Assembly (NCBI GenBank): GCA_020831525.1
Contig: JAFIGH010000020.1
Location: 1-60,842, forward strand
Direction: 5' to 3'
DNA: 60,842 nucleotides
Origin: Opitutales bacterium
GTDB lineage: Bacteria; Verrucomicrobiota; Verrucomicrobiia; Opitutales; Oceanipulchritudinaceae
Shown here in pieces: positions 1-19,857 of the stretch. The notes under the pieces were generated by a model. It saw only the letters and a program-made list of their open reading frames with translations, ran no database searches and had not been told where the DNA came from. Position numbers and translations under genes: made by a program. Numbering within the stretch: the stretch's first letter is position 1; each line of letters starts with the position of its first letter.

Positions 1-197
1 ACATGATAGACGGCGATTTCATCTGACTTTAGCCTTTTATCTCCCATAATAAATTTATAATCTCAGAGATTTTAAATTATTGTCAAGATTTGAAGACGGT
101 TCTCTCCCGCCCTCAAGGCTCGCCGGGGTATCCATACAGGCATGGTTCGATAAACTGCTTGTAGATTGCCAACGAGGTCGACGCTGCTGAAAGCCAT
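1..197. other. Intergenic left edge, no supported gene
   Basis: The first 100 bases are AT-rich compared with the rest of the window and look non-coding. Directly after the permease stop on the minus strand there is a 41-codon ATG frame (197 down to 72), and another minus frame ending at 113 gives a protein-like tail (IYKQFIEPCLYGYPGEP). Neither has a recognisable family, and both are too short to call. Confidence 0.4.
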
Positions 198-1889
198 TTA
201 CACCCGGAAAATCGCGCCGAGCTTTTTGCCCAGCAACAGGCTTGCGCCGATGATGGTAACAGCGAGAAACGCCATGGCCCAGACACCGAGCGCGCTGGCG
301 ATGAAACGCCCGTCGCCGAGGAACTGCATCAACTCGAAGATGGCCTTGGTGATGGGATAATACTGCGCCTTTTGCGCGAGAATGAGCGAATCCGAGACCT
401 CGAGCATCGACTGCGAGAAGGCAAGCAGACCGCCCGCGAGAAGGTTCGCGAGGATGAGCGGCAAAGTGATGCGGAAGGCGGTCTTGAGCGGGGGCGAGCC
501 GAGGTTTTGCGCCGCCTCTTCATAAGTCTCGCTCGTCGTCTGGAGTCCCGCCACGGCGGAGCGCACGACAAACGGCAGCTTGCGCACGGCGTAGGCAATG
601 ATGAGGAGCACGGTGGGGTTCTCGACGGCGTTGATAAACGAGAAAAATTTGCCCTCCTGACTCATTGCGAGGTACCCGAAGGCCATGACGAGCCCCGGCA
701 CAGCGAGCGGAAGCATGGCCATGGTGTCAAGGGCGTGGCGGCCCGGCAGGCGCGTGCGCACGACGACAAAGGCTATGCAGACCCCGATGACGATATTTAG
801 GGCTGTCGCCACACCGGCGTAGAAGAGACTGTTGCGGATGGACGAAACGGTGAGGGGGTGGCCGAGGGCCAGCTCGAAGTTGCGCAGAGTCCAGTCGAGC
901 GGAAGGATGCTCGCATACCAGTCGCCCGCGAAAGCGACGAGGACCACGCCCGCGTGGGGAAGCAGGGCGGCAAGGATCACTCCGCCGAAGATAAGCACGC
1001 AGACGGCCTGTCCGAAAATTCCCGGGCGCCGCGCGCCGCCGGCATGGCTCGCCTTGGCGAGCATGGAGAAGGTGTTGCGCCCGAAGAGGCCCTTGCCCAC
1101 GGCGTAGAAAAGGATCGAAAAGAAAAGCATCACGGCGACCAGCGCGTAGGGAAAGGGGCTGCCCCCGATATCCTTGATGCCGAAGAAAATCTGCACCGAG
1201 GTGAGCCGCGAGTAGTCGAAGATGAGGGGAACGCCCAGCTCCGTGAAGGCCCAGATAAAGACGATCGTGCAGCCCGCGAAGAGACCGGGCCGCATAAGCG
1301 GAAGCGTGATCTTGAAGAAGCGTTTGAAGCCGCGGCAGCCGAGGTTCTCCGCCGCCTCCTCCATCGCCGGGTCGATGTTAGCGAGCGAGGCGACGGCGTT
1401 GAGGTAGAGGATCGGGTACAGGCTCAGCGCAGTGACGACAACGACTCCCCAGAACTGCCCCTGCCCCAGCCAGTCGATGGTCTGGCCCTCCGCGAGAACG
1501 CCCACCGTCTCGAGCAACGCATTCACCGCCCCGTATTGTCCGAAGATCTGCTTCACTCCGATGGCCCCGACAAAGGGCGGCAGCATGATCGGCAACAGGA
1601 CAAGGCCCATAAAAAGCTTCTTGAACGGAAATTCGTAGCGGTCGGCAATATAGGCCAACGGCACCGCAATGAGGAGCGAAAGAATCGTTGCGAAGATCGC
1701 CAGACCGAAGGAGTTGAGCAGCCCCTCAAGGTATATCGGGTTGCGGAAGACCTCGACGACATAGGCGAGGGTGAATTCGCCGGCGTCGTAGAACCCGCCC
1801 TGTAGGATCTGCCAGATCGGCCAAAGAAAGAAGGCCCCGAAAAACACCAGCGTGAAGATATAGACAGTGATCGCTAAAGGCTTCGACAT
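198..1889 (-). CDS. Iron(III)-type ABC transporter permease, double-domain
   Basis: This 563-residue inner-membrane protein is a tandem permease: two copies of the binding-protein-dependent transport fold, each followed by an EAA loop that docks the ATPase. The loops are EEAAENLGCRGFKRFF in the first half and EEAAQNLGSPPLKTAF in the second. About twelve hydrophobic segments are visible. Length and layout match the FbpB/ThiP/PhnV-type permeases that import ferric iron, thiamine or 2-aminoethylphosphonate. Ferric iron is the commonest substrate of such fusions, but no binding protein or ATPase is in view to decide, and nothing downstream within the window supplies them. The partner genes may lie to the left of the window or elsewhere. 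It diverges from the PP2C gene. Confidence 0.85.
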   Translation of the reverse strand: MSKPLAITVYIFTLVFFGAFFLWPIWQILQGGFYDAGEFTLAYVVEVFRNPIYLEGLLNSFGLAIFATILSLLIAVPLAYIADRYEFPFKKLFMGLVLLPIMLPPFVGAIGVKQIFGQYGAVNALLETVGVLAEGQTIDWLGQGQFWGVVVVTALSLYPILYLNAVASLANIDPAMEEAAENLGCRGFKRFFKITLPLMRPGLFAGCTIVFIWAFTELGVPLIFDYSRLTSVQIFFGIKDIGGSPFPYALVAVMLFFSILFYAVGKGLFGRNTFSMLAKASHAGGARRPGIFGQAVCVLIFGGVILAALLPHAGVVLVAFAGDWYASILPLDWTLRNFELALGHPLTVSSIRNSLFYAGVATALNIVIGVCIAFVVVRTRLPGRHALDTMAMLPLAVPGLVMAFGYLAMSQEGKFFSFINAVENPTVLLIIAYAVRKLPFVVRSAVAGLQTTSETYEEAAQNLGSPPLKTAFRITLPLILANLLAGGLLAFSQSMLEVSDSLILAQKAQYYPITKAIFELMQFLGDGRFIASALGVWAMAFLAVTIIGASLLLGKKLGAIFRV

Positions 1890-1997
1890 CGGTCCACATA
1901 AGGAAGGTTCAACGGGTGCAGAGGTTCGGTCCCCGAACCCCCGGCGTCAAGGCTCTCGACCGCCAATGCGGTATTTGCTTCCGGTTTCGGTCGACTT

Positions 1998-2013
1998 GTG
2001 ACAGGTTTGTCAC
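1998..2013. promoter_or_regulatory. Perfect 6-bp inverted repeat between divergent genes
   Basis: GTGACA and TGTCAC are separated by GGTT in the 178-base gap between the ABC permease and the PP2C gene. The TGTGA...TCAC look recalls CRP/FNR-type sites, but the half-site spacing is two bases wider than the CRP consensus. It could serve either divergent promoter. This is inferred from symmetry and position only. Confidence 0.4.
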
Positions 2014-2067
2014 CCTGCGTTCATTCCGATTGCCGCCAGAGGCGGGTACGGGCGACGCACCTACCGA

Positions 2068-2778
2068 ATGAAAATTCTAAGCTACGGAGAAACCCACCGC
2101 GGTCGAGTGCGCGCGCACAATGAAGACGCGGTTCTCGTCCGAGGGGACCTCGGTCTCTTTGCCGTCGCCGACGGCGTCGGGGGCCTTCCCGACGGAGACT
2201 ACGCAAGCGAACGAGCACTCGAACTCTTGGCAGCCAAAGTCGGCGAGGCGGCGGACGGCGCCGTCGATCTCGAAGCCGTCCTCGCCGGAATCAACCGGTC
2301 AATCCTCCTTGAAGGACACCGCCGCCATCCCCGCGTCGGAATCGCCACGACGTTAACCTGTCTGCTCGTGCGGAACGAACGTGTCTGGATCGGCCATTTA
2401 GGCGACTCAATGGCGTGGCGCCTGCGCGACAACCACCTCCGCACACTGACCACCGAACACACTGTCGCCGCCGAAATCCAGGGCCGCCGCGAATCCGTTC
2501 CAAGCGAAACCATGCCCGGCCACTACTACCACACACTCACCCGCTGCATCGGCGAAAGCGAACCGACCGCACCGGAAATCATCGCCATGGAAACCGCGTC
2601 ACGGGACCGCTTTCTCCTCGCCTCCGACGGCCTCACGAAGGTCATCCGCCGCCAGGAAATCCACGCCCTTTTCCACGCCGCCTCTTCACCGGAAGACGCT
2701 ACCCGTGCGCTCATGAAAAAAGCGCTCGCCATGGGTGCCCCGGACAACGTGAGCGTCGTCTCCCTCTTTGTGGCCTGA
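2068..2778 (+). CDS. PP2C-family serine/threonine protein phosphatase
   Basis: A 236-residue soluble phosphatase of the PPM/PP2C family, which removes phosphate from Ser/Thr residues using two divalent metals. All metal-binding motifs are present: NED at 18-20, VADGVGG at 33-39, GDS at 112-114, ASDGL at 185-189 and PDN at 225-227. It is near the minimal length for bacterial stand-alone PP2C enzymes (about 240) and has no extra domain or membrane segment. No cognate kinase is visible in the window, which is unusual because such enzymes are often paired with one. The next two genes, a DUF4384 membrane protein and a caspase-like protease, follow on the same strand after 151 bases. Confidence 0.9.
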   Translation: MKILSYGETHRGRVRAHNEDAVLVRGDLGLFAVADGVGGLPDGDYASERALELLAAKVGEAADGAVDLEAVLAGINRSILLEGHRRHPRVGIATTLTCLLVRNERVWIGHLGDSMAWRLRDNHLRTLTTEHTVAAEIQGRRESVPSETMPGHYYHTLTRCIGESEPTAPEIIAMETASRDRFLLASDGLTKVIRRQEIHALFHAASSPEDATRALMKKALAMGAPDNVSVVSLFVA

Positions 2779-2838
2779 GGCAGAGTCGCCGCCGCGCACG
2801 GCAGATTCCCGGCCCGGAAGCGGGCTTGGAATCGGGAA

Positions 2839-2867
2839 TTGACATGCTCCCCGTATATCCGTAACGA
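2839..2867 (+). promoter_or_regulatory. Candidate sigma70-like promoter before the DUF4384/caspase pair
   Basis: A consensus TTGACA (2839-2844) is followed after 17 bases by TAACGA (2862-2867), a weak -10 match. It sits about 60 bases ahead of the DUF4384 gene, so the DUF4384/caspase pair could be transcribed separately from the PP2C gene. Confidence 0.35.
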
Positions 2868-2929
2868 TTTCAAAACGGTCGTTGTCTAACTCTCCTTACA
2901 ACGTATCTCCATTTTGAACCTCTCCATTC

Positions 2930-3712
2930 ATGGCGGACTCACGCACAACGGAGGTAGCGAGCACACCGCTTCGGGCGATCATTGAACGCCTGCAACATCC
3001 GGTTTTGCTCTTCAGTCTAGGCATCGCCCTCGTCATCGTGAGCGGATTCCAGCTCTTCGGCGAGCAGGCGAATCTGGGCGTCGGCGCGCTGCTCCTGGTC
3101 TTCGCGGCCGGGCTCGGCGTCTTTGCCCTTATGGAGACCCGCCGACCGACCGGGACCGACCCGGGTAAGCGCCTTTCAGCTCTTGGTCCCGGCGTATCCG
3201 GCCCGCTGCACGTCCGGCTGTGGCTCGACGCAGAGGCTGCAGGCGCAGCCGCGGGATCGCGTTCGATACGCATCGAAGCCGCACCGGAAGCACAGGCGAA
3301 AACCAACCTCCTGCGCATTGGTTCGCTCGTCCGTTTCAATGTCTCGGTCAGCCACAACTGCCACCTTACGCTCGTTAATATCGGAACCGACGGAAACCTT
3401 GCGCTCCTGTTTCCGAACGAACGGCACGGTGACAACCGCGTCCGCGCCGGAGAGACAGTAAGCATCCCGGACGACGCCCACGCCTTCCGCTTCCGACTTG
3501 CGCCCCCGCCGGGAATCGACCGCGTCAAGGCCATTGTCTCGCTGGATCCTGTCCGCATCACCGCAGCCGACCTGAGCGGCGGGCAGGACGCCCCGGGCGG
3601 GCGTTCCCGCGCGGGCACAGCACGCGCCGTCGAGGTCATCGAGCGCGAAGCCCGCCGCCTCGACCCCGCGCGCTGGGCGGAAGCGCACGTCGAATTCGAA
3701 GTTACACCATGA
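2930..3712 (+). CDS. Membrane-anchored DUF4384-domain protein
   Basis: A 260-residue protein with two hydrophobic segments near the N-terminus (about 24-43 and 48-68), followed by a beta-rich domain at roughly 105-200 that fits DUF4384. Its pattern includes TLVNIGTDGNLALLFPNE, then an extracted-basic NRVRAGETVSIP stretch and an APPPGIDRVKAIVS strand. DUF4384 domains are often found fused to or next to kinases and caspase-like peptidases, and their biochemical role is unknown. Its stop overlaps the start of the caspase gene (ATGA), so the two are translationally coupled. It may tether or sense for the protease; that is inference. Confidence 0.75.
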   Translation: MADSRTTEVASTPLRAIIERLQHPVLLFSLGIALVIVSGFQLFGEQANLGVGALLLVFAAGLGVFALMETRRPTGTDPGKRLSALGPGVSGPLHVRLWLDAEAAGAAAGSRSIRIEAAPEAQAKTNLLRIGSLVRFNVSVSHNCHLTLVNIGTDGNLALLFPNERHGDNRVRAGETVSIPDDAHAFRFRLAPPPGIDRVKAIVSLDPVRITAADLSGGQDAPGGRSRAGTARAVEVIEREARRLDPARWAEAHVEFEVTP

Positions 3713-5160
3713 CCACCGACACCGACCGCCGCGACAAAGTTTACGCGCTCGTTATCGGGCTCGGCCGCTACGCCGACCCTCAAGTAACACCGCTCAAATA
3801 CACCCGCAACGACGCCCAGGCCTTCGCCGACATCCTCACGGACCCAGCGCATTGCGGACTTGCGAAGGAAAACGTCCACGTCCTTCTCGACGAAAAGGCA
3901 ACCCTCTACGCGATAAAGGACGGTATCAGCAATTGGCTCGCGAGTGCGACGGACGACGACGCCACCGCATTTGTCTTTTTCGCCGGCCATGGCGGCGTCG
4001 AAGTCGACCGTACCCAGCGCGACGCGGACCGGTTTTCCACCTACCTCCTACCCTACGACACCAACCCGCAGAACCTTTTTGCATCGGCACTTGCCAAGGA
4101 AGTGTTTGAGCGCCTCCTCCGCACCCTGCGCGCACGACGCACCGTCGTCCTTCTCGACGCCTGCCACGCGGGCGGTGTCATCCCCGAAGGAGGGCGCAAT
4201 GTCGCTGTCCATTACGGCGGTGATTTATATGCGTCCATCGCCGAGGGCGCGGGCAGTCTCCTCATCGCCTCGGCGCAGCCCGACCAGCTCTCATGGGAGG
4301 ACGACTCTCTCGGGCACGGCATTTTCACCCATCACCTTCTCGAAGCCCTCCGAGGCGGCGCGGACCACGACAACGACGGCCGTGTCAGCCTCACGGACGT
4401 CTACCGTCACCTCCAGACGAACGTCCCGAAGACTTCCCGGAGGCTCGGGCGCACGGTCCAGGAACCTGTTTTCAAAGGCAGTTATTCGCGCGATATCGTC
4501 CTCGCCGTGAATCCCCGCCGGATTCTCGAGGCGCGCCTCGAAAGCGAGGAGGCGGAGAAACGGCGGCGCGAGCAATTGTGGACCTTCCGGGAAGCACTCT
4601 TCCGCCTTCACAAGGAAAACGGCCTGTCAACCGATGCCTTCAATGAACTGAACACCCTCGCGGAGAGCGACCCGGAAACTCTCTCCGACACCAACCGGCG
4701 AATCCTCGAACTCGCCCACGCCCTCGTCGCCGGCGCCATAAGCGTAGACGTATTTCACGACAGCCGCGCGGCCTTCAAAGCCCATGCGCAGGCAAGCACT
4801 CCCCGACCGCAGGCCTCCGCTCCGGTGAACCCGGCCCACACAGGCCCTGCGCCTGCCAAGCAAACCACTCCCCCGCGAAGGGCCACGGGACCGTCAAGCC
4901 CCCCGCAGCACACCGGGATAAAGACCGCCAAGCCCCCGGAAAGCTCCGCAGGACTCGTTCTGCTGGCGCTCATCGTTCCGCTCGTGGGCCTTGTCGTCGG
5001 CGTGATCCTCCTTGCCGCGAACGCCGAGTCCAACCGCGGACGCGCTATCCTCTGTATCGTCTTTTCCGTTGTAAATCTGCTCGCATGCCTTTTTCTCCTG
5101 CTCGTTGTCACCGTCGCCTTCGACGAACTCAACGGCCTCTATTACGACACCTATCCGTGA
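3709..5160 (+). CDS. Caspase-family (C14) protease with C-terminal membrane anchor
   Basis: This 483-residue protein starts with a caspase/metacaspase fold. The catalytic dyad is visible as His94 in FFAGHGG and Cys152 in LLDACHAGG, and the N-terminal strand VYALVIGLGRY with the YTRNDA helix are family hallmarks. A middle charged region (about 270-370) and a Pro/Ala/Thr-rich linker (about 355-410) lead to two membrane segments near 414-436 and 446-468, so the protease probably faces the cytoplasm. Prokaryotic caspases cleave after Arg/Lys or Asp, and some act in cell-death or antiphage systems. The partner DUF4384 protein overlaps at the start. The substrate is unknown. Confidence 0.85.
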   Translation: MTTDTDRRDKVYALVIGLGRYADPQVTPLKYTRNDAQAFADILTDPAHCGLAKENVHVLLDEKATLYAIKDGISNWLASATDDDATAFVFFAGHGGVEVDRTQRDADRFSTYLLPYDTNPQNLFASALAKEVFERLLRTLRARRTVVLLDACHAGGVIPEGGRNVAVHYGGDLYASIAEGAGSLLIASAQPDQLSWEDDSLGHGIFTHHLLEALRGGADHDNDGRVSLTDVYRHLQTNVPKTSRRLGRTVQEPVFKGSYSRDIVLAVNPRRILEARLESEEAEKRRREQLWTFREALFRLHKENGLSTDAFNELNTLAESDPETLSDTNRRILELAHALVAGAISVDVFHDSRAAFKAHAQASTPRPQASAPVNPAHTGPAPAKQTTPPRRATGPSSPPQHTGIKTAKPPESSAGLVLLALIVPLVGLVVGVILLAANAESNRGRAILCIVFSVVNLLACLFLLLVVTVAFDELNGLYYDTYP

Positions 5161-5179
5161 CCGACACCGCCGCTGTCGG
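5161..5179 (+). terminator. Short hairpin right after the caspase stop
   Basis: CCGACA and TGTCGG pair perfectly around a 7-base loop immediately after the TGA. There is no T run behind it, so a factor-independent terminator is doubtful. The neighbouring HNH gene converges on this point. Confidence 0.25.
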
Positions 5180-5256
5180 GATTCAGCCGAATACGACCGT
5201 CCATCTGTCAACGGCGACCGCCAGCCGATGTGCGGAAAACCGGAAACTTCCCTCAC

Positions 5257-5916
5257 TCAACCCGCGCTCATTTCTTTCTCCATGTGGAGAAACTGCATCC
5301 ACGAGGCATCGACATCCGATCCCGCCGCCACGCTGACAAACGGCCGCGCCTTTGGCCGCGACGGCTTGCGCACGAGCCGCAGGCCCGCCTCGTGCGGCAG
5401 ACGGTTCGCCTTCACGGCGTTCATCTCGCGCGAGCAGGTGACGATGTTCTCCCATGAGGTGCGGCCGCCGCGCTCGCGCGGGATCACATGGTCGAGGGTC
5501 AGGTCCTTCGCCTTGCAGGTGCGCCCGGAGTACTGGCAGGTGTAGTTGTCGCGCTCGAACACGTTCTGCCGGTTGAACTTCACCTCCGAGACCGGCAACC
5601 GGTCGAATTCGCGCAGAAGCAGGATCTTCGGCAGGATAATATGCATGCGGATCGTGCGCACATACTCCGCCTTCGGCGGCGGCGGATTGCTGCCCATGGA
5701 ATACTCCAGCCACTCCGGCGCCGTGTGCACGGTGTAGTCACCCGTGAAGGTGTTGATGACGCGCGCATGGTCCTGCCAGAGCAGCGAAAACGCCCGGCGC
5801 AGGCCCACAATGTTGACCGCCTGCCAGTTGCGGTTGAGCACGAGAACACGGCGGTTGGGCGTGCGGGCGCCTTCGCCTCCGCACTTTTCCCCAAACCTCT
5901 GCCGGAATGTACCCAT
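5257..5916 (-). CDS. HNH endonuclease with most zinc-ligand cysteines replaced
   Basis: A 219-residue member of the McrA-like HNH family. The N-terminal domain (VLVLNRNWQAVNIVG, then RAFSLLWQDHARVI) is the usual partner of this stand-alone clade. The beta-beta-alpha metal core reads LTLDHVIPRERGG followed by TSWENIV, so the catalytic His and the Asn are kept. The four-cysteine zinc knuckle that normally brackets the core (CxxC and CxxC) is reduced to CQYSG and CSREMN. I recall a Verrucomicrobiota/Planctomycetes subgroup with similar changes. The start was set at the ATG at 5916, where the conserved region begins soon after. The target is unknown; such genes are chromosomally common and not clearly restriction enzymes. 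Confidence 0.8.
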   Translation of the reverse strand: MGTFRQRFGEKCGGEGARTPNRRVLVLNRNWQAVNIVGLRRAFSLLWQDHARVINTFTGDYTVHTAPEWLEYSMGSNPPPPKAEYVRTIRMHIILPKILLLREFDRLPVSEVKFNRQNVFERDNYTCQYSGRTCKAKDLTLDHVIPRERGGRTSWENIVTCSREMNAVKANRLPHEAGLRLVRKPSRPKARPFVSVAAGSDVDASWMQFLHMEKEMSAG

Positions 5917-6024
5917 GACCGAGGCCGAGTATGGTGGAGACCGACCCCGCCCTGTCAACCCGCTTTTCCCACCTATCGCGGGTTCATTACGGGCAACCCG
6001 GTACCTTCGGTGGCGCGCCGCCGC

Positions 6025-6288
6025 TCACAACTTCTTATACACGTCCTCCAATGACAGCCCGCGGGCCAGCAGCAGGACCTGCGTATGGTAGAGCAATTGC
6101 GACACCTCCTCGGCAAGACGCTCGTCGCTCTCGTGCTCCGCCGCAATCCACACCTCGCCGGCTTCCTCCAGAACCTTCTTGCCGATTCCGTGAACCCCGC
6201 CCCGCAACGCCCGCACCGTGCCCGACGACTCGTCACCGCGCTCCGCCTTCGCCTGCAACTCCGCAAACAATCCTTCAAATGTTTTCAC
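6025..6288 (-). CDS. hisE: Phosphoribosyl-ATP pyrophosphatase
   Basis: An 87-residue alpha-helical enzyme of the MazG-like superfamily that hydrolyses phosphoribosyl-ATP to phosphoribosyl-AMP, the second step of histidine synthesis. The signature [18 protein letters not shown] provides the acidic metal-binding helix, and [15 protein letters not shown] the partner helix. The GTG at 6288 was preferred because homologues begin with VKTFEGLF-like residues there; a TTG at 6345 would add 19 poorly conserved residues. From memory it resembles the short actinobacterial type more than the proteobacterial HisE. No other his gene is in the window. A promoter inside a long inverted repeat lies just upstream. 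Confidence 0.9.
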
Positions 6289-6338
6289 CCCGCCCACAAA
6301 GCAGACCCCCGCAACACCCCGCAACCCGTTTCCCGCCT

Positions 6339-6376
6339 GCGACAAAAATTATCACAAATGGGAAAATTTTTGTCGC
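6339..6376 (-). promoter_or_regulatory. hisE promoter embedded in a perfect 12-bp inverted repeat
   Basis: On the minus strand a GCGACA -35 (6371-6376) and a GATAAT -10 preceded by TGT (6348-6353) are 17 bases apart. The two boxes lie inside the two arms of a perfect inverted repeat, GCGACAAAAATT (6339-6350) and AATTTTTGTCGC (6365-6376), with a 14-base centre. A third half-site-like sequence, GCGACGCAAAA, begins at 6375. The layout suggests a repressor operator that covers the promoter, though an attenuating hairpin cannot be excluded. Confidence 0.5.
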
Positions 6377-6552
6377 GACGCAAAACTTCGCACCTGTTAC
6401 GAAAAATGTCGCCCGCCGGATCCCGGCCCGGAAGGGAGGCCGCGTGGGCACAACCGGATCGGCGCGGCGGACTGAGGCAGCAGCGCGGAAAGGAAAGCGC
6501 ACACTCAAACCTTCTCGTTTGCACCCAATCACAACCATGGCCTCCATGCCCC

Positions 6553-8139
6553 TCACACGCCTTCGAGGTCGGCCTTGCGCACGGGATCCTTGGCGCGGAC
6601 GAAGTCGATGAGGAAGGCGCGGCTCTGGTACGGGAGGAGGCGCAGTTCGGAAGCGGGCTGGCGCAGGATATCGCGCATCTTCGGAAAGCGCCCGCCCCCG
6701 CCGGCGGCATCATAGGAGTTGAGGGCGATGGTGTAGCGGCGCGAGCCGGAGAGATCGGCGCCCGAGGCGTCAATAAGCCGCTCGACCTTGGGGCTGCGCC
6801 GCGGCCCGGAGACCTCGGCGGAGATGCCGCCGACGAGACTGCGCAACGTACGCTCGGCGTAGACTTCTTCGAGGACGGTGACCAGTTCGTCGCGCGTGAA
6901 GCGCGCCGTGACGATGAAATTTTCGAAGGGGATGATGCCCCAAAGGTCCTCGACCGTTTTCTTTCCGGGCGGGATAGGATCGTCTTGGAAAAGGAGACCG
7001 TGCAGGGCGGCGTCCACGGAATACCCGCGCTCGCGCAGCCCGTGTAGAATCGAGGTGCCGATGAGCTTCTCGGAACCGCTCGCCCGCCCGGGAGCATTCT
7101 CGATGCCGAGTTCTTCGGCGATGGTGCCGACTTCGGAGGACATCACGCGTTCGGATTCCTCGAGGTCATTCTTGGCGAGACTGAGAATGGCAGGGTCCTG
7201 CGGCACCCGGCCGTCGAGATGCGAGATTATCGGCTGCGCGTGCACGAGCTTGCGTGAATCAGCATTGAAAACAAGGTCCAGCCGCCCGACATGGATGCCG
7301 AAGTAATTGGCCTGCGTGTAGATTACGCCGTTGATGCGCTCGTTGGGGAGGTTGCGGTGGGTGTGGCCGCCGATAATAGCGTCGATCTCCGGGCAGGCTT
7401 CGGTGATGCCGAAGAGGCGGTTGGCCTGATCGTCCTCTGTCATCCGCGGGCGCGTTCCCATGTGGGTGACAAGGATGATCGCGTCCGCGCCGGCGGCCTT
7501 CGCTTCGTCGACCGCGCGCCGCACGGCGGGAACCGGGTCGGTGGCCTCAAAGCCGCGCAGGACCTCAGGGAGAAACCAATTGGGCATATTGGGCGTCATC
7601 GCTCCGATGAGGGCGATCTTGTAGCCGTTGACCTCTTTGATAAGGAAGGGCCGCGCGACATCGGGGCTGTCACCCGCCTCCCACGCCGATTTGCCGCCAA
7701 ACGTGGCGTTGGCCGTGAGCACAGGCATGGCGGAGGATCCGATGGCCTCCCGCACGACGGGTTCGCCCCAGTCAAACTCGTGGTTGCCAAGGACCCAGGC
7801 ATCGTAGTCGAGGTGGTTGAAGCAGTCCACCATGATGCGCCCGCGTGTGCGGTAGCCGACCTCCGTGCCTTGGTAAACATCGCCCGCGTCGACGAGGAGC
7901 GTGTGCGGATTCATCGCCCGCCACTGCCGGATGCGGCTCGCACACCGCGCCATTCCGCCGACATCGGCGATCCCGTCGTACGTCGATGTGGGAAGGATGT
8001 TCCCGTGCAGGTCGGTGGTGTGCAGGATAGAGACTGTTTCCAGCGGCCCGGTAAGCTTGGCGCGCAGAAACGGCGGGACGGCGGACACCGCTACAACCGT
8101 GCCCGCCCAACAGAGAAATCGACGACGTGTGAAGATCAT
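6553..8139 (-). CDS. 5'-nucleotidase / 2',3'-cyclic phosphodiesterase family, Tat-exported
   Basis: A 528-residue periplasmic phosphoesterase related to UshA/CpdB, which releases phosphate and nucleosides from extracellular nucleotides. It starts with a twin-arginine signal (TRRRFLCWAGTVVAVSAVPP). Metal-site motifs follow in order: HTTDLHGNI, VDAGDVYQG, LGNHEFDWG, a VTHMG histidine and GGHTHRN. The C-terminal substrate-binding domain ends with the NSYDAAGGGGRFPKM loop. The ATG at 8139 was chosen because it places the RR motif four residues in. It is divergent from the helicase gene and seems to be a single-gene unit. Confidence 0.9.
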   Translation of the reverse strand: MIFTRRRFLCWAGTVVAVSAVPPFLRAKLTGPLETVSILHTTDLHGNILPTSTYDGIADVGGMARCASRIRQWRAMNPHTLLVDAGDVYQGTEVGYRTRGRIMVDCFNHLDYDAWVLGNHEFDWGEPVVREAIGSSAMPVLTANATFGGKSAWEAGDSPDVARPFLIKEVNGYKIALIGAMTPNMPNWFLPEVLRGFEATDPVPAVRRAVDEAKAAGADAIILVTHMGTRPRMTEDDQANRLFGITEACPEIDAIIGGHTHRNLPNERINGVIYTQANYFGIHVGRLDLVFNADSRKLVHAQPIISHLDGRVPQDPAILSLAKNDLEESERVMSSEVGTIAEELGIENAPGRASGSEKLIGTSILHGLRERGYSVDAALHGLLFQDDPIPPGKKTVEDLWGIIPFENFIVTARFTRDELVTVLEEVYAERTLRSLVGGISAEVSGPRRSPKVERLIDASGADLSGSRRYTIALNSYDAAGGGGRFPKMRDILRQPASELRLLPYQSRAFLIDFVRAKDPVRKADLEGV

Positions 8140-8294
8140 AAGCGCAAGACTCCATCCCACGAAATTTTGCGTCCACGGCAAGTCCGGGCGGAACAAAAAA
8201 GGAATTTGCGGCGCGGCGGCAATGGCACAGGTTGAGCGGCAGGGTTCTTTTTCAAAATGACACACGCCGCCGAGACAGACTCCCCGTCCCGCCT

Positions 8295-10769
8295 ATGAAC
8301 AGTATCGACACTGCTTTCGCGAGTCACCTCAAGCTGCCGGATCTTTGGCAGCAGGCTGCCATCCGCGCCCTGCGCGACGGGCGCGACGTCATCGTACACG
8401 CCCCCACGGGAGCGGGAAAAACCTTCATCTTCGAAACCCTTGTCGAAACCGGACTGCGCAAAAACGTCGTCTACACCGTCCCCACCCGTGCGCTCGCCAA
8501 CGACAAACGCCTTGAATGGGCGGCGCAGCGGTGGGACGTGGGCATCGTCACAGGCGACCTTGCCGAAAACACGGAGGCACCGGTCATCGTCGCCACCCTC
8601 GAGACACAGAAACACCGATTCCTTGCGGGCGGGGGTCCGGGCCTTCTCGTCGTCGATGAATACCAGATGCTCGGCGACCCCTCGCGGGGTGTGAACTACG
8701 AACTCGCCCTCGCCCTTGCCCCGCCCGACACCCAGCTTCTCCTCCTCAGCGGCTCCGTCGGCAACCCCGAGTCCGTCGCCGACTGGCTGCGCCGCCTCGG
8801 GCGCGACGTCGAGTTGATCGAGCACTACGAGCGCCCCGTTCCCCTCGACGAAGTCAATGTCGAAGCGCTCCCCGAGCGCTCCGTCCCGGCGTCCGTCCGC
8901 GGTCTCTGGCCCCGTGCCATCGGCAAAGCCCTCGCCGCTGGAATGGCCCCGCTCCTCGCCTTCGCCCCCCGCCGGCGCGCCGCCGAGACGCTCGCCATGC
9001 AACTCGCCCGCGCCCTCCCCGAGGAAGATCCGCTCATCCTCACACCCGAACAGGAGCGCCTCGCCGGAGACACCCTCACCAAGCTCCTCAAGGCACGCAT
9101 CGCCTTTCACCACAGCGGCCTCAGCTACCGCCAGCGCGCCGGTCTCGTCGAGCCCCTCGCCAAAGCCGGGCAACTGCGCGTCGTCGTCGCCACCATGGGT
9201 CTCGCCGCCGGGATCAACTTTTCCATGCGCAGCGTCCTCGTCACCGACCGCGAATACCGCGCCGGAGACCACAGCCATCTCGTGCGGCCCGACGAACTCC
9301 TCCAGATGTTCGGGCGGGCGGGACGGCGCGGCCTCGACAAAAAGGGCTACATTCTCGTCGCGCCGGGCAAACCGAGGCTCAACGAAAGCCGCCCCCTCTC
9401 CCTCCGCCGCACAAACCAGATCGACTGGCCCAGCCTCATCGCCGTCATGCACGCCGCCGCCGTGCGCGGACGCGATCCCGCCGAAGCCGCGCGCGACCTA
9501 TCCTCCCGCCTCTTCAGCCCGCGCCGAGTCGTCCTCGGCCTCGCGGGCTTTCATGCCGACGGCCCGCCCCCCGCCGACGAACCCGCCCCCACCCGCATGC
9601 AGCAAATCGAGGAATTCCAGACCCCCGACGGCGACTGGGAGCGGCTCCGCAGCCCGCGCCGTGCGCCCCTCGGCGAAGCACTCACAGTTGCGCGGGGACG
9701 CTGGACGCCCGCCCTCTCGCAGGCCTTTGCCTTGAGCGGTGTGACAGCGGGCACCCTCTGCAAAATCGATACCGAGGAGGGGAAACTCTACGGACGCGAA
9801 GTGCCCCTCGCGCGCATTGGCAAAGACAAAGCCGAGGGCGAGCTTGTCCTCACCCGGTGGACACACGCCGCCCTGCGCGAACTCCACAAAGACACGCCGC
9901 CACCCGAAGGCCGCCCGCGCGGCCGCAAACGCTGGACCCTCGACCAGCTCGAAGACCACATCCTTCCGCTCCTGCCCCGCCTCGCGCAAGGGGGTGCCGT
10001 CCACGCCCTCGCCGAGCGCGGCGGCATGCTCTACGCGCGCCTCGACTACCGCTGGGCCGAGACATTCGCCGTCATCGACAGCGCCGGCCGCCCCCTCATC
10101 AACCCGCCCCGCCGTAAAGTCGCCGTCGAAGTCAACCTCCACTTCGCGGGCACCGCACCGAAAGAACGACCGCGCGGCCGTACTGCCGCCGAGACATGGT
10201 ACCAACTCGGCCTCATCGACGCCCGGACCCGCCCCACCCGCCGCGGCGTCATCTTCAGCTTTTTCAACCACGGCGAGGGCCTTGCTGTGGCCGCCGCCCT
10301 CGAGGACCCTTCCTATCCGCTCGAAGAACTCGCCTACGACATCGCCAACCTGCGCGCGGGCCACCGCTTCGGCGGGCAGAACGACTACTCCACCCGCCTC
10401 GGCGACACCTGCCGCCTCGCCTTCCGCAACGCCACCTACCCCGGATACCTCCGCAAGGGCGTACCCGAAACCTATGGCAACGGTGCCTCCGAAACCCTCC
10501 AACGCCTTGCCGCCAACCCCGCCCTGCGGGCGCGCGTGCTCGGTGAAGACCTCCTCGCCGGCGACATCGAACGCGCCCGCCTCGAATGGCGCAGCCTCCT
10601 CAACCAAATCGCCCACGCCCCCGATCTCGACTGGGAACGCTGGATCGACTTCCGCCACGAAATCCGCCGCCTCCTCTACTCCCTCGCCCCCCAAAGCCCC
10701 TACGAGGACCTCCCCGCTCTCACCCCCGTCCAGCAAAAACGCCACCGCTCCTTCCTCTCCTTCGATTGA
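8295..10769 (+). CDS. Ski2-like DExH superfamily 2 helicase
   Basis: An 824-residue ATP-dependent helicase. Motif I is APTGAGKT (36-43) and motif II reads DEYQ (121-124) instead of DEAD or DEVH. Motif III is SGSVGN and motif VI is QMFGRAGRRG, with HHSGL and the LAAGINF stretch typical of Ski2/Hel308-like enzymes. The C-terminal 400 residues carry no domain I recognise and hold several basic patches. The family unwinds RNA or branched DNA in RNA decay or repair; the substrate here is not shown by the sequence. The start is the first ATG ahead of the conserved N-terminus. It stands alone, divergent from the 5'-nucleotidase. Confidence 0.85.
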   Translation: MNSIDTAFASHLKLPDLWQQAAIRALRDGRDVIVHAPTGAGKTFIFETLVETGLRKNVVYTVPTRALANDKRLEWAAQRWDVGIVTGDLAENTEAPVIVATLETQKHRFLAGGGPGLLVVDEYQMLGDPSRGVNYELALALAPPDTQLLLLSGSVGNPESVADWLRRLGRDVELIEHYERPVPLDEVNVEALPERSVPASVRGLWPRAIGKALAAGMAPLLAFAPRRRAAETLAMQLARALPEEDPLILTPEQERLAGDTLTKLLKARIAFHHSGLSYRQRAGLVEPLAKAGQLRVVVATMGLAAGINFSMRSVLVTDREYRAGDHSHLVRPDELLQMFGRAGRRGLDKKGYILVAPGKPRLNESRPLSLRRTNQIDWPSLIAVMHAAAVRGRDPAEAARDLSSRLFSPRRVVLGLAGFHADGPPPADEPAPTRMQQIEEFQTPDGDWERLRSPRRAPLGEALTVARGRWTPALSQAFALSGVTAGTLCKIDTEEGKLYGREVPLARIGKDKAEGELVLTRWTHAALRELHKDTPPPEGRPRGRKRWTLDQLEDHILPLLPRLAQGGAVHALAERGGMLYARLDYRWAETFAVIDSAGRPLINPPRRKVAVEVNLHFAGTAPKERPRGRTAAETWYQLGLIDARTRPTRRGVIFSFFNHGEGLAVAAALEDPSYPLEELAYDIANLRAGHRFGGQNDYSTRLGDTCRLAFRNATYPGYLRKGVPETYGNGASETLQRLAANPALRARVLGEDLLAGDIERARLEWRSLLNQIAHAPDLDWERWIDFRHEIRRLLYSLAPQSPYEDLPALTPVQQKRHRSFLSFD

Positions 10770-10788
10770 GCAAATCTTTCGACGTCAG

Positions 10789-11058
10789 CTAGAGAAAGAG
10801 GAAGAGTCCGAACATCATCGAAACGCCAACAAAGAGGAGGGAGTCGGCGAACAAGATAATCAACAAGCGCTGTAATGGATAGAAGAATTGGATACGAACG
10901 ACTCGGCTATTTTCAATCTCCGCACGGATTTCAATGACCGCCGATACAAATATAAGGAAAACGACCGCATGAAAGAACCAATCCGGTAGATCCGAAGTGC
11001 TCTCTGCATCAAGTTTGTGGGCAAACGAAGCACCACTGCGGGCGTGCGGGGGCGTGCC
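10789..11058 (-). pseudogene. Headless open frame with two membrane segments
   Basis: This 289-base gap between converging genes holds an 89-codon open frame on the minus strand that begins in frame directly after the TGA of the host-attachment gene and ends at TAG (10789-10791). It contains no ATG, GTG or TTG before its first hydrophobic segment. The product would read DLPDWFFHAVVFLIFVSAVI, a charged EIRAEIENSR loop, then LLIILFADSLLFVGVSMMFG. The composition is protein-like, and GC is clearly lower than in the neighbours. I do not recognise the family. It is either a 3' remnant of a membrane protein or an extension reached only by readthrough or a non-canonical start. Confidence 0.35.
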
Positions 11059-11526
11059 TCAATAGGCGGCGTCAATGGCCGCCTGGATCACCCGTGGCGC
11101 TTCGGTGGTCAGATTCTTGGGTATTTCGAGCACGACCTTACCGCGTGTCGGCTCGTCGAGCTTGGAACGGAGAAGGCCGAGAAAGCTGGGCTCGGCAACG
11201 AGAACGAGGCGCTCCAGCGAGCCGCGGCTACGGGCTTTTTTCAGTTCGGCGGCGATTTCGCGGGCAAACTTCTCGGCCTCGCGCCGTTTGGAGTCGGATG
11301 CCTCGCCCATGGAGTCCTCCGAGGGATTGGCGGACTGGAAAACCTGTCCGGGCGCGTCGCGGTCGAGGTCGCGGCCGTGCATACGAGATTCCGGGTGGAG
11401 GCGTGTCTCCAGTTCAAGGAGAGGGCTGAACTTCTTTTCGCGCGCGAAAAAGCGCGCATGACCGGCGTTGGCCGCCACGACTAGAATTTGTCCCGCCTGA
11501 ATAGCTCTTTGTGTCTGCGTTGTCAT
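11059..11526 (-). CDS. Host-attachment-family (baeRF-like) protein
   Basis: A 155-residue soluble protein of the family named host attachment protein (PF10116), first described in agrobacteria and related to archaeal release-factor-1-like (baeRF) folds. Seen here are the start QILVVAANAGHARFFARE, the middle RREAEKFAREIAAELKKA and the RLVLVAEPSFLGLLRSKL strand-helix, all family hallmarks. Its biochemical role is unsettled. The ATG at 11526 has a strong AAAGGAG just ahead, but only two bases away. It follows mgtE on the same strand after about 76 bases containing a small hairpin, so it may have its own promoter. Confidence 0.8.
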   Translation of the reverse strand: MTTQTQRAIQAGQILVVAANAGHARFFAREKKFSPLLELETRLHPESRMHGRDLDRDAPGQVFQSANPSEDSMGEASDSKRREAEKFAREIAAELKKARSRGSLERLVLVAEPSFLGLLRSKLDEPTRGKVVLEIPKNLTTEAPRVIQAAIDAAY

Positions 11527-11562
11527 AGCTCCTTTCAATTTACAATAACGGTGGTTTCTAAA

Positions 11563-11584
11563 CCGGTGTCTATCGTAACACCGG
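11563..11584 (-). terminator. Hairpin between mgtE and the host-attachment gene
   Basis: CCGGTGT (11563-11569) and ACACCGG (11578-11584) form a 7-bp stem with an 8-base loop. It lies 19 bases after the mgtE stop on the minus strand. The following TTT is too short for a classical terminator, so it may only attenuate or stabilise the transcript. Confidence 0.35.
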
Positions 11585-11602
11585 ATACACGGCGAAGCAA
11601 CC

Positions 11603-12973
11603 TCAGCCCGCACCGAGGATTTTCACGATGAAGAGCGTGCTGAGGCCGAGGTAGATGGTGACTCCGGTAATGTCGGTGATGGTCGTGAGGACCGGGCCGG
11701 TCATCATGGCGGGATCCTTGCCCATTTTTTTGATAAAGAAGGGCAGCGTGCCGCCGACAATACCGGCGAGGAACACATTGCACGCAAGGGCAATGCCTGC
11801 GACGAGGCCCATCCACGCGTTGCCCTGCAAGACGTAGGCAACAACGGCGAAGAGCACCCCGAGTGCCGCGCCGTTGACGAGGCCGATGAGGATTTCCTTG
11901 CGCGTGGCCTTCCAGAATTCGTTCAGCCGCGCCTCGCCGAGGGCGATGCTGCGGATCGAGACGGAGAGCGCCTGGATGCCGACATTGCCCCCCATGTCCG
12001 TGATCATGGGGAGAAAGGCGGCGAGAATGGCCACCTGCGCGATGGTATCCTCGAAGCCGGAGATGATGAAGACGGCGCCGAGGTTGAGAAAGATGTTGGC
12101 GGCCATCCACGGCAGGCGCATTCGCACGGACCCCATCGGGGGAGTGAAGAAGCTCTCCTCCTTCGAGGCCGCGTTGAGAGCGGTGAACTGGTCGGCAAGG
12201 CTGCGGTTGAGGGCGCGGGCGGCATCGTCGAGAGTGATGATACCGATCATGGCGTTATTCGTGTCGATGACCGGGAGCGAGAGCTGGCGGCGGTTGAGGA
12301 GCATGCGCGCGGCCTCCTCGGCGGGGTGGCGGTCGGGCACGACGGCGAGGCGCCGGTTCATCACCGTGCCCACGGGGACCGTCGTCTCCTGGGAAAGCAG
12401 CTCGCGCAGGGTAATCATCCCGACAGGCGTCCCCGCGCTGTCGATGACGTAGATGTCGGAACGCTGCTCATGGTGCACGGGCAGGCTCTCGACCGCCGCG
12501 ATCACTTCGCCCACCGGTGTCTTTTCGTCGACGGCGAAGAAGTCCGTCGTCATGAGCGCGCCGGCTTCCTCGGCAGTGTAGCGTTCGAGGCTTTCGATCT
12601 CCCCGCGGTCCTCCTCGCTGAGCTGGCCGATATAGGCCGTGCGCCGCTGTTCGGCGAGCAGGGGCGTGATATCCGCGACGCGGTCGACCGGCACATGCTT
12701 TAGCAGGGCAAAGGCTGTCTTGGCTTTGGCGGCGGAGAGCACGTCGGCGACGAGTCGCGTGGGCATGCGCGCAATGATTTCGCCCGCGCGGTCGGGCTTC
12801 ATCTTGCGCAGGCACGGCACAATATGCTCGCGCGGTGCCTGGGCCAGCATGTCGGCGGCGCGCCCGACCGAGATGCGGGCCGCGAGTGAGGCGGCTTCTT
12901 CGGCACGCCCTTCGGCGAGGGCCCCGGCCATTTCCAGCCGCAGTTCTTTGAGTTTTTCAGGTACGAGAATCAT
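11603..12973 (-). CDS. mgtE: Magnesium transporter MgtE
   Basis: A 456-residue inner-membrane Mg2+ channel. It has the three usual parts: an N-terminal superhelical MgtE_N domain (about 25-125), a tandem CBS pair (about 130-255, with [18 protein letters not shown] and [18 protein letters not shown]) and a five-helix transmembrane pore (about 285-455) containing [20 protein letters not shown]. Cytosolic Mg2+ binding between the N and CBS domains closes the pore in characterised homologues. The ATG at 12973 gives the standard length; it is divergent from coaD. A 3' hairpin separates it from the next gene. Confidence 0.95.
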
Positions 12974-13144
12974 GTCGGGTCCGTGGTTTCGGTGAAGAGG
13001 AGACAAGGGCACCAAGAAAACGGGTTCAGGGGGAACCGGCGTCCGTTTGGTCCGGCCCGGAGAATCAAACCGCCCGCCGGAAGGCAGGGAAAGCAAAAAA
13101 AGGTTTTGCGGGGCGGAGCCGTCTGGTGTGCGATGCGCGGTCCC

Positions 13145-13645
13145 ATGCGGAAAGCTTTGTATCCAGGGACGTTCGACCCTTTCACAAACGGCCATCTCGA
13201 CATTCTGCGGCGGGCCTGCCGGATCTTCGACGAAGTGATCATCGCGGTGGCTCCCAATCCACGGAAGGAGCCGCTGTTCTCCGCCGAGGAGCGGATGGAA
13301 ATGATCAACGGAAACATCGTGGGCCTGAACGCGCGGGTGACGGGTTTCGGCGGTCTTGTCGTCGATTTCGCCGAATCCTGCGGCGCCATCGCGCTCATCC
13401 GCGGCCTGCGCGCCGTGTCCGACTTCGAGTTCGAGTTCCAAATGACGCAGATGAACCGCGACCTCAACGACAAGATTGAAACGATTTTCCTCATGCCGGG
13501 TTCGCGCTACTTTTTCACGAGTTCGACGCTCATGAAGCAGGTCTCGTATTATGACACGGCGCGGATCGCGAAGTTTGTTCCGCCCAACGTCGCGGCGGCC
13601 CTGCAGGCGCGCTTCGCCAAAAACCCGGAGGCGGGCGAAGCATGA
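13145..13645 (+). CDS. coaD: Phosphopantetheine adenylyltransferase
   Basis: A 166-residue nucleotidyltransferase that joins ATP to 4'-phosphopantetheine to make dephospho-CoA, the penultimate CoA step. The N-terminus [18 protein letters not shown] carries the TxGH-type active-site histidine, [15 protein letters not shown] the substrate loop and [11 protein letters not shown] the second nucleotide-binding motif. The ATG at 13145 matches the family N-terminus; an ATG at 13133 would add four residues. The stop overlaps the start of an MFS exporter gene (ATGA). Confidence 0.95.
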
Positions 13646-15039
13646 GCAAGCGCACGCCTTCCGGCACCGGCGCGGGCCGACAAAAGGCAGGGCGCTCCTC
13701 CCTCGGGGCGATCCTCCTCGTCGTCCTCATCGACTTGATCGGCTTTTCGATTATATTTCCACTTTTCCCCGCCATGCTCGAGCACTACCTTGGGCAAGAG
13801 GGGCCGGACAGTCTCATCGGGCGGCTCGCGGGATTCCTCGAAGGCCTCGCGCCGGTGCACAACAGCGCGTTCGTCACGGCGGTGCTCTTCGGCGGCGTCC
13901 TCGGCAGTATTTACAGCTTTCTTCAGTTTATCGCCGCCCCGCTCTGGGGCCGCCTCTCCGACCGTGTGGGGCGGCGCCGCGTGCTCCTCTTCACCGTCGG
14001 AGGGACTGCCCTGAGCTACCTGCTCTGGGCCTTCAGCGGCAGTTTTCTGCTCCTTGTCCTTGCCCGCGCTCTCGGCGGGATCATGGCGGGGAATATCGCC
14101 GTCGCAACCGCCGCCGTGGCCGACGTCACGACAGGCCGCGAGCGCACCCGCGCCATGGCACTTGTGGGAGTCGCTTTCGGCGTCGGGTTCGTCATAGGCC
14201 CGGCGATCGGCGGGCTGGCCTCGTTTGTCGACTTCACGCGGGTCTATCCCGGGGCCGCGCCGCTCGGCATCAATCCCTTCTCCTTCCCCGCCCTCTGCGC
14301 ACTCTTTCTCGCCACGGCCAACTTTTTCTGGGTGCTTCTGAGTTTCCGCGAAACCCTCCCCGAAAGCGGTGATGCCGAGGGCGGGGTGCGGGCCGATCCG
14401 CGCCTCATCGGCAGCGTCGCCAACCCCGCCGCGCGCCTCGCCTGCCGCGTGTATTTCGTGCTCATGATCGCGTTTGCGGGGATGGAGTTCACGCTCACGT
14501 TCCTCGCTGTGGAACGGTTGTTTTACCACCCGCCCGACATGATCTGGATGTTTATCTTCATCGGATTCATGCTTGCGCTCACACAGGGCTTTGTCGTGCG
14601 GCGGTTCGTCCGACGCACGGGCGAGATCCCCATGGCCGTGGCCGGAATACTCCTTGCCTTCCTCGGACTCGTCGCCCTCGCCTCCTCCCATGAAACGGTG
14701 CCGTTCTACACCGGCCTCGGTCTGCTCGCCGCCGGCATCGGCCTCACAAGCCCGACACTCAGCGCACTCGTCTCGCTCTACTCCGGAAAAGGCGAGCAAG
14801 GCCGCCACCTCGGCGCTTTCCGCGCCTACGGTGCTCTCGCCCGCGCCGTCGGCCCCTTTCTCGCCGCCATCCTCTTCTGGCAGTTCGGGTCGACCACCGC
14901 CTACCTCGCCGCCGCCGGTGTGATGCTTGTCGCCGTGCTCGGAGCCGTGCTCCTACCCAAGCCCTTCATTCCGGACGACGCTGAACCAGCGACCGGAAAA
15001 AAGGCGGAGCCCAGGCCGTTGCCCGACCTGCCTGGCTGA
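13642..15039 (+). CDS. MFS transporter, TetA-like drug/proton antiporter
   Basis: A 465-residue twelve-helix permease of the major facilitator superfamily. Motif [13 protein letters not shown], sits between helices 2 and 3 as in TetA-type drug:H+ antiporters, and [16 protein letters not shown] is the antiporter motif C in helix 5. The insert of about 35 residues between helices 1 and 2 is longer than in TetA. The substrate is unknown. Translational coupling to coaD (ATGA) is probably organisational. YcjX follows after 52 bases. Confidence 0.85.
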
Positions 15040-15091
15040 ACCGGAATACCGTTGTCATTCGCGGCCCGGCGGGATCGAATGGCACCCAACA

Positions 15092-16540: not shown

Positions 16541-17613
16541 CGAAGCCAACCGCGCCCCGCGAAGACGACACCGGCTACAACAATCCCACGCGCCCAAGCC
16601 GGTCCTCCCGGCCTCTCGGCGCGGAGGAGCGCGCCGCCTTTCATGCCGCCGAAGTCGAGCCCCTCGATCCCGATGAAATCCGCGGCGAACTCACCGAAAC
16701 AGAGGACAATCTCCATGGTGCCTTCCGCCGGGCGCTGCGGTGGGGCCGGGGCGCCATCCTCCTTGTCGCCCTCCTCGTCCTCTTCACCGGCCTCATGGCG
16801 TATGTCGTAGCCGTCGACATCTACCTCCGCCTCGAAACCCTGCCCCTTGCCCTGCAAGTTCCCTTCTGGATCCTTCTCGCGCTCTTTTCCGTCCTCCTCC
16901 TGCGCGTCGTTTTCCAAGGCATGAGGCTCTGGTGGCGGCTGCGCTCCCTGCCCCAAATCTCACTCCCCGCGCCGCTCGCGGAAGCGAATCCGCCCTCCGA
17001 CACCGAGGCCGCAAAAGCCCGTGAAGCACTCCTGCCCTACGTCAGGGGCCTCCACGAAGACCGCGCCCGCCTCGATGCGGAGTGGTCGGCTTTCTGGCCC
17101 GCCAAAGCGCCGCAACAGCCCGCCGCCGTCCTCCGGGCCGCCCGCGCCCTCACCGACCCGGCGCCCGTGGAGTCCTCACTCTGGCTCGAAGACCTCCAGA
17201 GCGGCGTCCTGCGACCCCTCGACGCCGTCGCCAATGAGCGTATCTGGCACTACACCAAGATTATCGGCCTCAAAACCGCCATCTCGCCCTTCCCCCTCAT
17301 CGACGCACTCGCCGTTCTCTACAACACTGGGCGCATGCTCCACGACCTCGCCCTGCTCTACAACCGGCGCATCCACCGCGCGCAGATCGCCCTCCTTCTC
17401 GGTCTTGTCATCTTCCAGACCTACGTCGCCAGCCAGGCTCAGGAGGTCCTCGAAAGCGGCGCCGAGGAGATGTCCGGCTTCCTCTCCAACAACCTCGCCC
17501 GCGCCTCCGGCAAACTCATCGGCGCGCGCATCGCCGAGGGCACCGTCAACGGCCTCGTCGCCCGCCGTCTCGGGCGCCGCGCCCTCCGCTACCTCCGTCC
17601 CGTCACAAAATAA
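16537..17613 (+). CDS. ycjF: YcjF-family (DUF697) membrane protein
   Basis: A 358-residue inner-membrane protein, partner of YcjX. The N-terminal 65 residues are acidic and polar. Two adjacent transmembrane segments follow (about 69-92 and 100-122). The C-terminal half is the DUF697 region, with hydrophobic stretches around AISPFPLIDALAVLYNTGRM and IALLLGLVIFQTYV, and a Gly/Arg-rich end. It starts at the ATG overlapping the YcjX stop. The role is unknown; the conserved pairing suggests a membrane complex with the YcjX GTPase. Confidence 0.8.
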   Translation: MTKPTAPREDDTGYNNPTRPSRSSRPLGAEERAAFHAAEVEPLDPDEIRGELTETEDNLHGAFRRALRWGRGAILLVALLVLFTGLMAYVVAVDIYLRLETLPLALQVPFWILLALFSVLLLRVVFQGMRLWWRLRSLPQISLPAPLAEANPPSDTEAAKAREALLPYVRGLHEDRARLDAEWSAFWPAKAPQQPAAVLRAARALTDPAPVESSLWLEDLQSGVLRPLDAVANERIWHYTKIIGLKTAISPFPLIDALAVLYNTGRMLHDLALLYNRRIHRAQIALLLGLVIFQTYVASQAQEVLESGAEEMSGFLSNNLARASGKLIGARIAEGTVNGLVARRLGRRALRYLRPVTK

Positions 17614-17858
17614 TCCACCTCTTCCTCTTCACCGTCGTTTTGGACCGCGAGTGGGTGCGAGACCTCGTGCACCAGACCGCCGCCGCAATCGTTCTCCGTC
17701 AACCGCGCAGGCCAAGGCCGGAACGGCAGACCGACCGACGACAATCGCGGAATGTGCGGCTCTTCGTAGTCGGCGGACCTTGGCTGGCCCCCGACCGAAT
17801 CGGGACGGTTGCTCTGGGATCGCCCGTGAAGGGCGCACCGGCCCTATCTCGCGTCGGC

Positions 17859-19809: not shown

Positions 19810-19857
19810 GAATCAAGGTGTAGGGACGAGGACGAAAAGAACTTGAACCCCCAAACC

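Follow-up and report, generated by a model that had tools for sequence, protein, structure and literature searches.

A DUF4384 membrane protein and a caspase as a candidate accessory two-gene module between conserved PP2C and HNH genes of an Opitutales bacterium

The window analyzed here is the whole stretch of 60,842 nucleotides, one contig (JAFIGH010000020.1) of the 5.3-Mb genome of an Opitutales bacterium. Between a conserved gene for a PP2C-type phosphatase and a conserved HNH gene, it contains two overlapping genes, which encode a membrane protein with a DUF4384 domain and a caspase. We propose that these two genes constitute an accessory caspase module acting at the face of the membrane, with the DUF4384 gene in the first and the caspase gene in the second position, and we assign this interpretation a probability of roughly 0.58. 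It builds on four direct observations, namely the gene boundaries, the lack of the insert at this site in a genus mate, the repeated occurrence of the pair in further bacteria, and the presence of His and Cys in the caspase. The features of the region are as follows:

2068-2778, + strand: PP2C-type Ser/Thr phosphatase (Stp1/PstP-like), 236 aa; from open reading frame (ORF), Pfam, NCBIfam and PDB relatives; a neighbour, outside the module
2779-5256, no strand: accessory stretch between the PP2C and HNH genes, 2,478 bp; from blastn/tblastn against a genus mate (G002), which has 108 bp there
2930-3712, + strand: DUF4384 membrane protein, 260 aa; from Pfam (PF14326) and hydropathy; hairpin at about 25-67, DUF4384 at 128-206, then a C-terminal strand
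3709-3712, + strand: ATGA overlap of the DUF4384 stop codon and the caspase start codon, 4 nt; putative translational coupling
3709-5160, + strand: membrane-anchored caspase (C14), 483 aa; Pfam PF00656 match at 12-256, His94 and Cys152, AlphaFold2 (AF2) model
5257-5958, - strand: HNH-domain gene bounding the accessory stretch; from Pfam; conserved in G002, outside the module

All three proteins encoded on the plus strand scored above their Pfam cut-offs (PP2C_2, 64.1 bits, cut-off 24; DUF4384, 76.7 bits, cut-off 27; Peptidase_C14, 84.0 bits, cut-off 21.4), and the genome contains one C14 gene, one DUF4384 match and two PP2C matches. The caspase has His94 in the motif FAGHG and Cys152 in the motif DACH, and hydropathy analysis located two C-terminal helices starting at residues 416 and 449. 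An earlier note on this DNA had described these properties, as well as a two-helix DUF4384 protein, confirmed here by hydropathy (helix starts 25 and 49) and Pfam, and the ATGA overlap of the two genes, which indeed comprises 4 nt. In the AF2 model of the caspase (mean predicted local distance difference test score, pLDDT, of 84), the caspase domain was followed by helices within residues 269-363 and by helices at 413-437 and 442-481, with a low-confidence linker up to about residue 411. Taken together, the prediction is a caspase fold with helices behind it, and then two membrane helices attached through a flexible linker. Foldseek matched the model to GSU0716 (3bij), metacaspases and MALT1. 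The sequence, the model and the Foldseek matches together provided the His/Cys pair and the caspase fold that characterize prokaryotic caspases (C14, orthocaspases).

A single caspase protein as query against genomes, one per species, gave no matches, and no close orthologue of the caspase was found. When five aligned caspases were used against one genome per species, 275 relatives were obtained and the best 80 were kept; they were collected with two patterns, one of which contained the Cys motif. His and Cys were conserved in 12 of 12 rows of an alignment of distant caspase relatives (A3). They were also conserved in 50 of 50 rows of another alignment of distant relatives (A5), a count that is biased by the Cys motif in the collecting pattern. 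A5 consisted of the window protein and 49 relatives, i.e. the 50 non-redundant sequences among the 80 without the short fragment L187. Asp150, two residues before Cys152, was invariant in A5, and we take its role to be the binding of basic residues. Orthocaspases cleave after Arg or Lys, according to the available part of PMC6426788. Judged from its sequence, the caspase is apparently intact. No signal peptide was seen in the caspase, and therefore the protein probably faces the cytoplasm. Shared ancestry of its helical region with those of KSB3 and Desulfococcaceae caspases looked likely by eye and was not adopted, as phmmer matched the region only to itself.

The pair occupies a site that is empty in the genus mate G002. 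There, the genes for an ABC permease, the PP2C, the HNH protein, HisE, a 5'-nucleotidase and a helicase are arranged in the same order as in the window, with protein identities of 82-99%. The DNA alignment of the two genomes breaks at position 2778 and restarts at 5257, and only 108 bp are present in G002 versus 2,478 bp in the window. Neither the caspase nor the DUF4384 protein had a match anywhere in G001 or G002, the two genus mates. In G001, a gene of the Y1 (IS200-like) transposase type follows the PP2C gene (L134, 8841-9848), at the very junction that holds the pair in the window, and thus this junction is variable. Elsewhere in the family, more distant caspase matches were found in three genomes (G005, G011 and G016) and C14 matches in a fourth (G006). 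A foreign composition of the insert was ruled out: the GC (guanine plus cytosine) content of the accessory stretch is 0.634 versus 0.635 for the window, and the codon usage of its genes lies inside the range of 11 other genes. Therefore, there is no sign of recent transfer. No repeat pair joining the two ends of the accessory stretch was found. The simplest reading of these comparisons is that the pair was gained in this genome, the alternative being its loss in the others.

Next, the recurrence of the pair was quantified. Each of the two Pfam families was searched in 387 genomes of the phylum; 31 of them contained DUF4384 and 62 contained C14. Both families were present in 20 genomes, compared to 5.0 expected (Fisher odds ratio 13.6, p = 1.5e-10, for related genomes that are not independent). 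The two families lay within 10 kb of one another in 13 of these 20 genomes (12 of 19 without that of the window), while random placement gave a mean of 0.36 and a maximum of 4 in 20,000 trials; the overlaps of the two family lists (20 genomes, of which 13 with the families within 10 kb) had been determined by eye. In addition, 127 stretches (the window, L042-L077, L149 and L151-L239) were examined with our own profiles. Both families were present in 24 of them, and 22 distinct loci were left after removal of L149 and L152, which repeat L060 and L048; L052 and L063 were kept despite the lack of a Pfam C14 match in their genomes. The two genes were on the same strand in 21 of the 22 loci. The DUF4384 gene was upstream in 16 loci and downstream in four, in one locus the nearest DUF4384 was part of a fusion, and in one the genes were on opposite strands. 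In half of the loci (11 of 22) the genes nearly touched, with gaps of -4 to 36 nt when the longest ORFs were used. Because related species are not independent, the 22 loci do not represent 22 independent events.

The pair is not confined to the phylum. Among the 80 kept caspase loci, many of which end at contig ends, DUF4384 was present in the flanks (up to 6 kb) of five, assigned by their record titles to Latescibacterota (L165), Planctomycetota (L166), Deltaproteobacteria (L169), Nitrospina (L180) and Troglogloeales (L187). The Rhizobium plasmid NZ_CP020951.1 (L159, 513593-525853) encodes a DUF4384-TPR-OmpA protein, a caspase, a single polypeptide with trypsin, caspase and DUF4384 domains, and a serpin, so that the proteases have a neighbour of the inhibitor type. 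DUF4384 matches were found in 87 plasmid records, of which 85 were from Rhizobium. Among the matches listed, all 45 plasmid records with both families (those common to the 60 listed caspase rows and the listed DUF4384 rows) had DUF4384 5' of the caspase, on the same strand and 1,584-1,627 bp away; as the plasmids are close relatives, they amount to a single case. In Azospirillum sp. TSA2s, a DUF4384 match lies inside a gene annotated as caspase. Fusions of DUF4384 in other proteins involve papain, cytochrome c, OmpA and the trypsin-caspase chains. DUF4384 and C14 are thus adjacent or fused in unrelated bacteria, and DUF4384-caspase is a recurring bacterial two-gene pair. In viral contigs, the scan for caspases gave two weak partial matches.

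Fusions of the two domains are already known, and the pair of the window is an unusual, membrane-hairpin form of the recurring pair. In the available parts of the respective articles, DUF4384 is counted 23 times as an accessory domain among 473 cyanobacterial orthocaspases (PMC8283722), occurs with several cyanobacterial orthocaspases (PMC7475262), and is present in alphaproteobacterial trypsin pseudo-orthocaspases, often co-occurring with N-terminal kinase domains (PMC6426788). These parts of the open-licence literature on DUF4384 and caspases describe fusions and no two-gene pair. In the window, the same two domains are encoded by separate genes, and each protein has its own membrane hairpin. 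The alphaproteobacterial clade in the excerpt of PMC6426788 has Gln/Cys, in contrast to the His/Cys of the window caspase. The Rhizobium cluster is similar in that a DUF4384 gene is located directly 5' of a caspase gene, at a distance of 21 nt. However, its proteins have signal-like N-termini, it encodes an additional protease and the serpin, and its identity to the window is low (36% over 88 residues for DUF4384).

The described system with the closest layout is EACC1-caspase (PMC7159879, Kaur et al. 2020). The available text of that article gives it a small membrane protein at the 5' end and, at the 3' end, an N-terminal caspase with a variable C-terminus, and proposes that it senses at the membrane and acts through the caspase by autoproteolysis. 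The same text reports that the system is common in actinobacteria but of scattered occurrence in proteobacteria, and that at least 33% of caspase-domain proteins have membrane helices. The window pair has the same two-gene layout, including the N-terminal caspase domain of the 3' protein and its helical C-terminus, and the best NCBIfam match of the caspase is the EACC1-associated caspase model NF047832. However, its score of 123.7 bits is below the cut-off of 140, and the first protein has DUF4384 and two helices, whereas EACC1 has a single conserved helix. EACC1 was not found in the first protein by Pfam (E<=0.5), and PF19953 had 0 matches in the window's genome in a search run without a positive control. 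Membership in the EACC1-caspase system was therefore ruled out. By analogy of layout, the window pair may work in a similar manner, with the DUF4384 protein in the position of EACC1.

How might the two proteins cooperate? The net charges around the hairpin of the DUF4384 protein are 0 before it, -1 in the loop and +2 after it, and the negative loop and positive following segment suit a DUF4384 domain that would be cytoplasmic. Both proteins would reside in the inner membrane, and their domains would be cytoplasmic. The DUF4384 protein could sense a membrane signal, or it could hold the caspase in place and control it; among holding, sensing for and restraining the caspase at the membrane, the present data favor none. 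Once freed from this control, the caspase might cut cytoplasmic or membrane proteins, probably after Arg or Lys, and cleavage might kill or arrest the cell or switch a pathway. Direct partners would be expected to show matching compartments, and hence the compartments of 15 of the 22 pairs were surveyed (without L042, L043, L052, L057, L063, L169 and L180). Three pairs (L056, L061 and L165) were set aside due to doubtful starts or a cut contig. The compartments agreed in 12 of the 12 judged pairs, with signal-like N-termini on both proteins in nine, on neither in two, and hairpins on both in one, the window, although these calls were based on crude hydropathy, some assumed a later start codon, and the relatives are not independent.

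Further observations also weigh against the proposed module. In none of the 14 other pairs surveyed did both proteins have hairpins, and the orientation of the caspase hairpin does not follow clearly from the charges around it (+1 before, +1 in the loop, -3 after). No solved relative of the DUF4384 domain was found by sequence, the AF2 model of the protein was weak (mean pLDDT 50), and its Foldseek matches were insignificant (best E 0.0025, laccases) and were not used; for these reasons, the role of DUF4384 can only be suggested. Only five of the 80 kept caspase loci were flanked by DUF4384 (up to 6 kb), and the two families lay apart in seven of the 20 genomes of the phylum that have both, so that many caspases manage without DUF4384. 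With a single genus mate displaying the gap, gain here and loss there cannot be fully separated. In addition, no defence or phage genes were recognized beside the pair in a Pfam scan of the genes within window positions 198-8265.

The earlier note had united the PP2C, the DUF4384 protein and the caspase in one cluster forming a phospho-controlled switch at the membrane. The three genes are indeed on one strand within 3.1 kb, and two Pkinase matches elsewhere in the genome (solely on contigs C178 and C21, away from the window contig) could supply phosphorylation. The PP2C motifs are also intact, as noted earlier: RAHNED (15), ADGVGG (34), HLGDS (110), SDGLT (186) and PDNVS (225), which we take to hold the metal-binding Asp residues. 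The phosphatase resembles Stp1/PstP-type PP2Cs, with 153.5 bits to NF033484 (below the cut-off of 230) and relatives in the PDB that include 1txo and 2cm1, but it lies outside the DUF4384-caspase module. All 17 family genomes, including that of the window, had a PP2C match, in some cases only to a distant paralogue, and full-length relatives were present in 12 of the 16 other genomes (34-83% identity; 81 and 83% in the genus mates). The co-conservation of the trio in relatives, for which the earlier note had proposed a neighbourhood search, was not observed: the DUF4384 protein and the caspase were absent from all 14 PP2C loci that were taken from these 12 genomes and searched with eight window proteins, and neither PP2C nor a kinase motif was found in the flanks (up to 6 kb) of any of the 80 kept caspase loci. 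Of the 22 loci that contain both DUF4384 and caspase, a single one apart from the window, L062, had a PP2C in the stretch examined, on the other strand and about 3 kb away. As had been remarked before, no kinase is next door; the gene calls of window positions 1-20000 contain no kinase motif. Thus, neither a kinase beside the PP2C nor co-conservation of PP2C and effector, the marks of a kinase-PP2C-effector cluster, was found. In a search of open-licence articles, PP2C, caspase and bacterial gene neighborhood came together in PMC7159879 alone. The PP2C loci without the pair, the empty site in G002 and the PP2C-free caspase neighbourhoods elsewhere rule out the trio as a unit, and a three-gene phospho-switch, largely refuted by the empty site, is highly improbable. 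Nothing found shows a role of the PP2C together with the pair; it is a conserved household phosphatase in the genus and most of the family, unrelated to the pair. What survives of the earlier interpretation is its pairing of a seemingly intact caspase with a DUF4384 protein: both have membrane helices, their genes overlap, and the pairing recurs in other genomes. The PP2C membership and the phospho-control found no support.

Two other explanations retain the pair and differ in its function. The DUF4384 protein might be devoted to the caspase as its inhibitor or folding partner, antitoxin-like and made first from a shared message, and would then not be a sensor. The position of its gene in front of the caspase gene with the ATGA overlap, the upstream location in 16 of the 22 loci, and the additional serpin-family protein of the Rhizobium cluster are in line with this idea. 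However, the DUF4384 fusions listed above would be less expected of an inhibitor of caspases alone than of a binding or sensing domain, and the gene is downstream in four loci. We regard this explanation as unlikely. Slightly less probable still is a protease pair for processing or quality control of membrane proteins, unconnected with conflict or death. Envelope processing would be compatible with the signal-like N-termini of both proteins in nine of the 12 judged pairs and with the cytochrome c domains of one DUF4384 partner, but not easily with the patchy, accessory distribution, as both genes were unmatched in two genus mates and C14 was present in only 62 of 387 genomes.

Beyond the module of the window, the general role of DUF4384 might be that of a specialized partner of cysteine and serine proteases (caspase, papain, trypsin), which it would position and gate at the membranes of bacteria. 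In that case, the window pair would represent the smallest version, on the cytoplasmic face, of an unnamed family of modules reaching across several phyla. Elsewhere in the phylum, members of this family would be linked with Snf7/ESCRT-III-like proteins and with an AAA ATPase in a system of membrane remodelling and proteolysis. We offer this generalization tentatively and consider it rather doubtful. Removal of the false three-gene system leads to a sharper question, namely how DUF4384 serves bacterial caspases. The Pfam name of DUF4384 conveys no function, yet the domain accompanies proteases across phyla. The compact, doubly anchored pair, with no ATPase encoded beside it, would be a convenient test case for the restraint and release of a caspase.

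Several additional observations were made. In L048 (9705-12344, G274), DUF4384 and cytochrome c-type domains are part of one protein, encoded upstream of a caspase gene. A C-terminal motif of DUF4384 proteins that had seemed specific to those with a caspase was rejected, as members lacking a nearby caspase have it too. In L060 (G225:C10), L050 (G298:C5), L053 (G413:C114) and L055 (G315:C168), DUF4384 genes belong to a recurring Snf7/ESCRT-III-like cluster. The clusters, whose recurrence in these four genomes was found by phmmer, also include an AAA ATPase along with a protein related to a multi-helix protein of 311 aa. A papain-type protease is encoded near the Snf7-like cluster in L050, L053 and L060, the last of which also has adjoining caspase genes. 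The Snf7 match in L060 had 35.7 bits (cut-off 27.3), and the window's genome had no Snf7 match. PADLOC reported only a generic caspase match of 70.6 bits and, for PP2C, candidate matches to PDC-M21C of 46.5 and 24.9 bits. TTGACA is present near position 2838, ahead of the DUF4384 gene; an own sigma-70 promoter of the pair was not supported, as a promoter scan of 1880-5300 gave 0 matches versus 0.6 expected. The sole exact match to the spaced pattern TTGACA/16-18/TANNNT in the window is at 53402-53430 (shuffle mean 0.09), upstream of the ORF at 53561-55198.

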